Assembly: GCA_020072965.1 (NCBI GenBank)
Contig: JAIQFY010000029.1
Span: 1-59,923, forward strand
Reading direction: 5' to 3'
Source of the DNA: Terriglobia bacterium
GTDB lineage: Bacteria; Acidobacteriota; Terriglobia; JAIQFV01
Length of the DNA: 59,923 bases
Shown: positions 16,253 to 17,987 of the stretch, in pieces
How the letters are laid out: the number at the start of each line of letters is the position of its first letter
Position numbering within the stretch: position 1 is the first letter of the stretch
The notes under the pieces: generated by a model
What the model was told of the DNA's origin: nothing
Seen by the model: only the letters and a program-made list of their open reading frames with translations
The model's database searches: none
Position numbers and translations under genes: made by a program

Positions 16253-16286
16253 TAAGGAAACATTGTAATCTGTTTGGGACGAAATC

Positions 16287-16336
16287 AGAAGTCGGAAGAG
16301 CAGGTGTTAGGTATGAGGTTTCAGGTGTCAGGTATG
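16287..16336. repeat. Seven-base tandem repeat, left part
   Basis: The stretch begins AGAAGTC, GGAAGAG. From 16302 to 16336 it contains five consecutive 7-mers AGGTGTT, AGGTATG, AGGTTTC, AGGTGTC, AGGTATG. It lies between the LipM-like gene and the palindrome at 16365. See the related array at 16390. Confidence 0.65.
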
Positions 16337-16364
16337 GAAAGCTAGAAGCCCGAGTCTCTTGTAG

Positions 16365-16384
16365 GGGCGCACAGATGTGCGCCC
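16365..16384. repeat. Palindrome GGGCGCAC-AGAT-GTGCGCCC
   Basis: A perfect 8-bp stem with an AGAT loop. The preceding 13 bases (16361-16373, GTAGGGGCGCACA) recur exactly at 52158-52170, so this is a dispersed repeat. Confidence 0.65.
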
Positions 16385-16389
16385 TCTTT

Positions 16390-16452
16390 CGAAGTCAGAA
16401 GTCCGAAGGCGGAAGCCAGAAGAAAGATGTCAGAAGTCGGAGGTCGGATGAC
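16390..16452. repeat. Nine in-register 7-mers (AGAAGTC family)
   Basis: Units in order are CGAAGTC, AGAAGTC, CGAAGGC, GGAAGCC, AGAAGAA, AGATGTC, AGAAGTC, GGAGGTC and GGATGAC. The 63-bp array ends 42 bp beyond the proposed TAA stop of the DedA-rhodanese gene. Confidence 0.7.
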
Positions 16453-16494
16453 AGGGACCGAAGAAGCGTCAGTAACCTTAACTTTGAACTCTTT

Positions 16495-17469
16495 TTACGA
16501 AAACTGGGGGAGCACGAGGATATCCTCGGCAGGGACTGTTTCGACGTCGCCTTCCATTTCTGTCCAAGCTTTAAAACCCCCGCGGATCACGAAGGCATTA
16601 AAACCCTTTTCCCGAAGGAGGTGCACCAGCCTGGTGCTTGTCGCTTCGTTCCTTCAGGTGCAATACAGATAAATCTCCTTGTCCCGGGGCAGTTTCTCAA
16701 ACTGCTCGCTGATGGATGCTGGTTCGATACGGATTGAGCCTTTGATGCGCTGGGACCCTTCCTCGTAATAACCGTGGCTGCGCGCGTCGGCAATCAGGAT
16801 CGTTGTTGACAGGTTCGGATCGGAGAGTTTTCCAGCCAATTCCTGAACGCTCACTCGGGGCACTTCCCGGTAGAGCCGGTTCTTGGAGTAGATCCGAAAA
16901 CGGCGAATGGCATACCCGAACAGGGCGAGAACAAAAAGCCAGAGAAAAATCTGGCCCAGGGAATGGATACTGTTCACAACGCTCTCAATGCCCCGGCTGA
17001 AGAAATACCCGACCCCAAGAAACGGGACGATGTAAAGCAGGCTTCCCAGCAGATCGAGGGCGAGGAACTGCCGGAGTTTCATCTTCAGACTTCCAGCCAG
17101 GGGAGGGGCCATGGTGTTGATGCCGGGGATGTACTTCGCGACCACCAGGGTGATCCGGCCCCGCTTATAAAACGACTCCGCAGACCGCAAGATGCAGGTC
17201 TCCGGACTGGCGGAAACCTTGCAGAGAAATCCGAGAATCCGCCAGCCTGACAGTCTTCCAAGAATATAGAGGATTGTATCCCCTATCAACATCCCGATGA
17301 CCGCCGTCAGCAGGACGATCGCGAGGTTCAGGGAACCGAGCATCGACGCAGCGCCCGCCGCAAGAAGAAACGGGAACGCCGGGATTGGTAATCCCAGAGA
17401 TTCGAAAAAAACACTGGCGAAAATGATCGCGTACCCGTAGCGGTCGAGAAGATGCAAGACGTGGTCCAT
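16495..17469 (-). CDS. DedA-family membrane protein fused to rhodanese; in-frame TGA, probable selenoprotein
   Basis: Residues 1-200 are a DedA/SNARE-associated membrane protein: SLGLPIPAFPFLLAAGA, IGMLIGDTILYILGRLSG and FYKRGRITLVVAKYIPG, with several membrane helices. Residues about 220-324 form a cytoplasmic rhodanese domain (TTILIADARSHGYYEEGSQRIKGSIRI). The frame meets TGA at 16654-16656, right after KEIYLYCT. It continues with RNEATSTRLVHLLREKGF, then VIRGGFKAW and VLPQFS to a TAA at 16495-16497. The downstream part is exactly what a rhodanese needs, and a hairpin of SECIS geometry follows the TGA. I read it as Sec272 in a Cys-Thr-Sec motif. A nonsense mutation is the alternative. Without readthrough the product would be 271 residues and lack half the rhodanese domain. 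Confidence 0.75.
16611..16658 (-). promoter_or_regulatory. Candidate bacterial SECIS element
   Basis: On the minus strand, GCACCA (16637-16632) pairs perfectly with TGGTGC (16628-16623) around a three-base loop GGC. The loop starts 22 nt after the TGA and its first two bases are G. A lower stem pairs CCTGAAGG (16658-16651, containing the TGA) with CCTTCGGG (16618-16611) with one U-G wobble. Known bacterial SECIS hairpins lie within about 16-37 nt of the UGA and need a G in the first loop positions. Confidence 0.65.
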
Positions 17470-17712: not shown

Positions 17713-17732
17713 CTCCTGAAGCTGTAATCGCG

Positions 17733-17857
17733 AGGGTCAGATCTCCGCATTCTTCAATTGCTGACGGGCGAGCCCCAGCGCGGTGGTTAGCTGAAGATCG
17801 CGAATGAAAAAAATGCGGAATTGCCTCTTCAAATGCAGATTGCAGAGATCTGACCCT
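17733..17857. mobile_element. 125-bp inverted-repeat element (MITE or transposon remnant)
   Basis: The ends AGGGTCAGATCT (17733-17744) and AGATCTGACCCT (17846-17857) are perfect 12-bp inverted repeats, with imperfect pairing continuing inward for about 9 more bases. The interior is too short for a transposase. On the minus strand it can encode a short tail LGLARQQLKNAEI ending in a TGA that lies inside the terminal repeat. I infer an internally deleted copy of an element with REP-like ends. Confidence 0.6.
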
Positions 17858-17987
17858 TGCCATTACCAACAGTAAGGGCCAGGAATATCGTGACGAAAAC
17901 GACGTAGAGTTTCCGCTTTTGCGCAAGCATGCTGTGATCCTTTCTGAAACTCACTACTGCTTTGCCGGTTCCTTTAAACTATATAAA

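Follow-up and report, generated by a model that had tools for sequence, protein, structure and literature searches.

In bacteria, selenocysteine (Sec) is delivered to a UGA codon by SelB, which attaches to the apical loop of a SECIS hairpin as a complex with GTP and Sec-tRNA. Bacterial SECIS elements (bSECIS) have loops of 3-9 nt, stems of 4-16 bp, a G within the first two nucleotides of the loop and a spacing of 16-37 nt (PMC13188914). Among the rhodaneses, a selenoprotein with a CxU motif has been described as NF041203 (rhodanese_LYCAU, "rhodanese-like domain-containing protein form 3"; PMC13188914, PMC9312934). Fusions of a DedA and a rhodanese domain are mentioned for COG0586, where no Sec version is given and the link of the rhodanese to a lipid carrier is called unclear (PMC10127716). 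Both CxU rhodanese selenoproteins and DedA-rhodanese fusions are therefore known already; neither a fusion with Sec nor a DedA selenoprotein turned up in the literature searched, which was mostly open-access and did not include bioRxiv preprints.

The locus described here belongs to a soil acidobacterium of the class Terriglobia (Acidobacteriota). Positions refer to the window, i.e., the whole stretch of 59,923 nucleotides that was analysed. The gene and its central codons are as follows:

16495..17469, minus strand: ORF of the DedA (VTT)-rhodanese fusion; counting the TGA as Sec, 324 codons plus the stop codon
16656-16654, minus strand: in-frame TGA, codon 272, read as Sec (motif LYCTU) from a comparison of 135 homologues
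16660..16662, minus strand: codon of Cys270, two residues before Sec272, Cys in 135/135 homologues

Both domains of the fusion exceed the Pfam gathering scores, the VTT domain at residues 29-155 (PF09335; 50.4 bits against 33.9) and the rhodanese domain at residues 208-304 (PF00581; 46.8 bits against 22.2). The TGA lies in the active-site loop of the rhodanese domain (I-Y-L-Y-C270-T-U272-R-N-E-A-T-S), and we take the C270 position to be that of the canonical rhodanese catalytic Cys. The rhodanese part matches rhodaneses in the PDB by sequence and, in a good AlphaFold model of the fusion (mean pLDDT 84.8), also by fold. This domain is probably cytoplasmic, because a run of Arg and Lys follows the last helix.

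The fusion shares with NF041203 a rhodanese domain with Sec two residues past the catalytic Cys (CxU; C270-T-U272), but differs in its N-terminal DedA domain and in two additional conserved Cys. The window protein stays below the NF041203 cut-off of 115 bits (80.3 bits as protein, 75.9 bits as DNA); 28 aligned fused relatives likewise match this model, the best E-value among the 29 fused members being 4.1e-28. With the COG0586 fusions it has the same two domains in common, including a DedA type proposed to flip undecaprenyl phosphate (PMC10127716). The UptA flippase models NF052605 and NF052604 score 47 and 32.7 bits, below their equivalog cut-offs of 300 and 250. TsoB (NF045694), a rhodanese/DsbD fusion-like selenoprotein, similarly joins a membrane domain to a Sec-containing rhodanese, although its membrane domain is a different one and its motif is UxxxxU; the TsoB model gives weak matches only, in 4 of the 29 fused members. 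In the same class we also noticed short rhodanese matches that stand alone and contain a single in-frame TGA (G016:C41:6611-6958, G050:C79:145501-145782, G041:C26:4266-4538, G055:C57:16978-17274 and G034:C8:18451-18705), which perhaps represent the known CxU rhodanese selenoprotein.

Downstream of the TGA the transcript can form the following hairpin:

16637-16623, minus strand: candidate SECIS upper stem-loop GCACCA-GGC-TGGTGC, intact in 76/78 TGA and 4/57 Cys homologues

The initial annotation had reported a 6-bp GCACCA/TGGTGC stem with a GGC triloop and bacterial SECIS geometry at this place. The hairpin is indeed seen there, and its GGC loop, its 6 bp and its loop offset agree with the published constraints. 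The 22 nt given there as the distance from the TGA applies to the start of the loop; the stem itself begins after 16 nt. The fold energy of the 90-nt region is ordinary, with a z-score of the minimum free energy of -0.80 and 44 of 200 shuffles as good. A search of Rfam at gathering and relaxed thresholds returned no family match, a result that says little.

How readily such a structure arises can be judged within the window. The loosest geometry limits are met after 62% of its 2204 TGA trinucleotides, and 2.4% are followed by a Watson-Crick hairpin of at least 6 bp with permitted loop and spacing. A hairpin of the family type at the exact family spacing follows a single one of the 2204, which is the number accounted for by the site itself. 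When the window peptide is recoded synonymously, 3.1% of the draws contain the family hairpin. Since the hairpin lies in codons, it is not wholly independent of the protein evidence, as had been supposed; the peptide alone lifts its chance to about 3%. In the single copy of the window the hairpin is thus barely more than chance would give, and the argument must therefore rest on the relatives.

A second helix encloses the TGA:

16658-16650 with 16619-16611, minus strand: lower helix CCUGAAGGA/UCCUUCGGG, 9 pairs including one U-G

The lower stem noted initially is present, but it does not count as evidence because its conservation ends with the family of the window. All nine pairs form in two congeneric genomes and seven of nine in a confamilial genome; other Sec rows mostly show 2-5 of the 9, the same as Cys rows. 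We rejected it as a part of the SECIS, and it is probably incidental.

Codon 272 was compared in 135 DedA-rhodanese fusion homologues, all from the class Terriglobia. It is TGA in 78 of them and a Cys codon in the remaining 57 (TGC in 43, TGT in 14), and no other codon occurs. Cys is the standard counterpart of Sec, and the in-frame UGA aligned with the Cys of homologues (78 TGA, 57 Cys) is the pattern by which a selenoprotein is recognized. On a tree in which the trait residue was masked to control for relatedness, Sec and Cys switch 15 times, and strongly supported branches require at least 10 of these switches. In comparisons with the two nearest relatives, dN/dS is 0.118 and 0.097 downstream of the TGA and 0.108 and 0.104 upstream, so that purifying selection acts equally on both sides of the codon.

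These observations bear on the reading of the TGA as an ordinary stop, by which the gene would encode a protein of 271 residues that breaks off within the rhodanese domain, or would be a pseudogene or a sequencing error, and the hairpin would be a by-product of GC-rich codons. The ORF of 271 residues under translation table 11 does end at the TGA, and the ordinary fold energy of the hairpin would suit such a by-product. However, a stop that 78 homologues share at this codon, is otherwise replaced by Cys only and never by another stop, is followed by a sequence with a dN/dS of about 0.1 and is tracked by the hairpin is very improbable as a chance termination. An annotation that reads the TGA as a stop would truncate the protein at residue 271.

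The tracking becomes apparent when the hairpin is aligned across the homologues. The family core is a 5-bp stem GCACC/GGTGC with the loop AGGCT, and its 5-nt loop starts 21 nt after the TGA without any gaps. In a scan of loop positions and sizes over the first 30 homologues, this family setting gave the highest pairing as well as the largest contrast between Sec and Cys. A complete stem capped by an xG[GU] loop occurs in 76 of the 78 TGA copies compared with 4 of the 57 Cys copies (Fisher p 4e-30), and the two exceptions among the Sec copies retain 4 of 5 pairs. Relatedness does not account for this contrast: among 10 independent pairs on strongly supported branches, the hairpin goes with Sec in about nine and against it in none (p ~0.004). 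Equal retention of the hairpin by Cys homologues, which the initial annotation had named as grounds against a SECIS, is accordingly not what we find, and the 9:0 ratio of the pairs together with the counts above supports its view that the hairpin strengthens the selenoprotein reading. The putative SECIS thus persists where the codon is Sec-UGA and disappears from homologues with Cys. Relative to the bSECIS consensus of the E. coli fdhF type, the window's family has a fixed, GC-rich stem of 5 bp, a loop of 5 nt (3 nt when A-U closes) and no conserved lower stem.

Among the four Cys copies whose hairpin is intact, L126 (TGC) and L145 (TGT) in genomes G167 and G191 adjoin a Sec relative in the tree. 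They may have exchanged Sec for Cys only recently.

The conservation of the stem could also reflect an amino-acid constraint (SARVA) in the Sec lineages instead of an RNA signal. Many Sec copies contain ATSARVA, a peptide that favours codons giving GCGCC/GGCGC, and the null rate of hairpins for Sec peptides exceeds that for Cys peptides two- to threefold. Synonymous codon choice would nevertheless produce the hairpin in 2.7% of Sec copies (0.8% of Cys copies), whereas 97% of the Sec copies have it. Furthermore, Cys copies with the identical ATSARVA (L012, L013, L017 and L132) lack the stem, while the window's family pairs in spite of its STRLV, as do copies with SARMA and SASLA (L016, L135 and L139). 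We regard a constraint on the peptide alone as exceedingly improbable. The third stem pair is A-U in the window's family versus G-C in nearly all others (3/34 distinct rows), a compensatory change from G-C to A-U that coincides with different amino acids. Compensatory changes, for which the initial annotation had proposed to search the homologues, are thus represented by one clear two-sided event, and only by one because the stem is nearly invariant.

The host has the means to decode the UGA. Its genome encodes SelA (556.5 bits, above the family cut-off), SelB (381.7 bits), SelD (376.7 bits; its gene contains one in-frame TGA as well) and a tRNA-Sec with the anticodon tca. The TGA of SelD (L048:1532-1534, G000:C68) is followed by GGTCCAAA-GGA-TTTGGACC, an 8-bp stem with a GGA triloop that starts 20 nt downstream; selD would thus be another selenoprotein gene here, and two genes of this genome share one SECIS architecture. 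Across the class, SelA is present in 74 of the 78 genomes with a Sec copy, compared with 31 of the 55 genomes that have Cys only. The four Sec genomes without SelA (G033, G091, G123 and G329) are 75-88% complete.

Structured RNA 3' of a stop codon can promote read-through in general, and the UGA might be read through or recoded without selenium, by a near-cognate tRNA or a code in which TGA means Trp or Cys, with the hairpin merely as a stimulator. This scenario deserves hardly any credence: the alternative residue is always Cys, the genome has a complete Sec machinery, the Sec copies co-occur with SelA, and the loop conforms to the G[G/U] type known from bSECIS. On the TGA/Cys pattern, the contrast in the hairpin, the co-occurrence with SelA and the dN/dS values we rejected an alternative code as well as a pseudogene.

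We conclude that the hairpin is almost certainly a bacterial SECIS that directs Sec to UGA 272 of the DedA-rhodanese fusion. This reading is supported because the exchange between TGA and Cys, the tracking of Sec by the hairpin, the compensatory change, the purifying selection and the Sec machinery all agree with it. Beyond these observations, we infer the binding of SelB, the actual insertion of Sec, the membrane topology and the chemistry. SelB carrying Sec-tRNA(Sec) would bind the G-containing apical loop and decode the UGA as Sec, while without the hairpin translation would stop at the UGA, after residue 271. In the predicted product, a DedA (VTT) domain in the membrane precedes a rhodanese domain that is probably exposed to the cytoplasm. 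Most likely, Cys270 would take up sulfane sulfur (or selenium) and form a persulfide as in ordinary rhodaneses, and Sec272 would act as a fast resolving or exchange residue by means of a Se-S bridge. A DedA-rhodanese fusion would thereby be added to the selenoproteome. The family further offers a large natural experiment, in which a single class shows at least 10 exchanges of Sec and Cys at one codon of a membrane protein and an RNA signal varies with the codon.

The DedA domain contributes the two additional conserved Cys:

17221..17223, minus strand: codon of Cys83, DedA domain, Cys in 134/134 aligned fusion homologues
17194..17196, minus strand: codon of Cys92, DedA domain, Cys in 135/135 fusion homologues

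Of 14 single-domain DedA proteins from the class that served for comparison, 12 lack both C83 and C92. Two DedA proteins of 226 residues without a fused rhodanese (L175 and L176, both of G041) possess both Cys. Each of the two adjoins a similar ORF, presumably a DUF547 protein. A divergent set of DedA-rhodanese proteins (L193-L200) has Ser or Thr at position 272 instead of Sec or Cys. Seven full copies have Ser/Thr272 and may be a single clade; four of them have lost C92 and one has lost C83, a hint that C92 and residue 272 are functionally linked. It is conceivable, though we consider it rather doubtful, that the fusions are a membrane selenoprotein family not described before, with Sec272/Cys270 and C83/C92 as one thiol-selenol relay that would couple the transfer of sulfur or selenium (or the redox state) to transport by DedA. 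The Sec/Cys pairs and the conserved Cys of the DedA domain make a functional link between rhodanese and DedA testable.

Among the loci compared, no general neighbour gene emerged as a clue to function, because lplA and hrcA adjoin the fusion in the window's own family only. Imperfect GA-rich direct repeats of the CGAAATCAGAAGTCGGAAG type lie in the intergenic region downstream of the gene (16280-16454 of the window). Upstream, at 17724-17866, an inverted repeat with arms of 37 nt that are 84% complementary and 69 nt apart is possibly a small mobile or repeat element.
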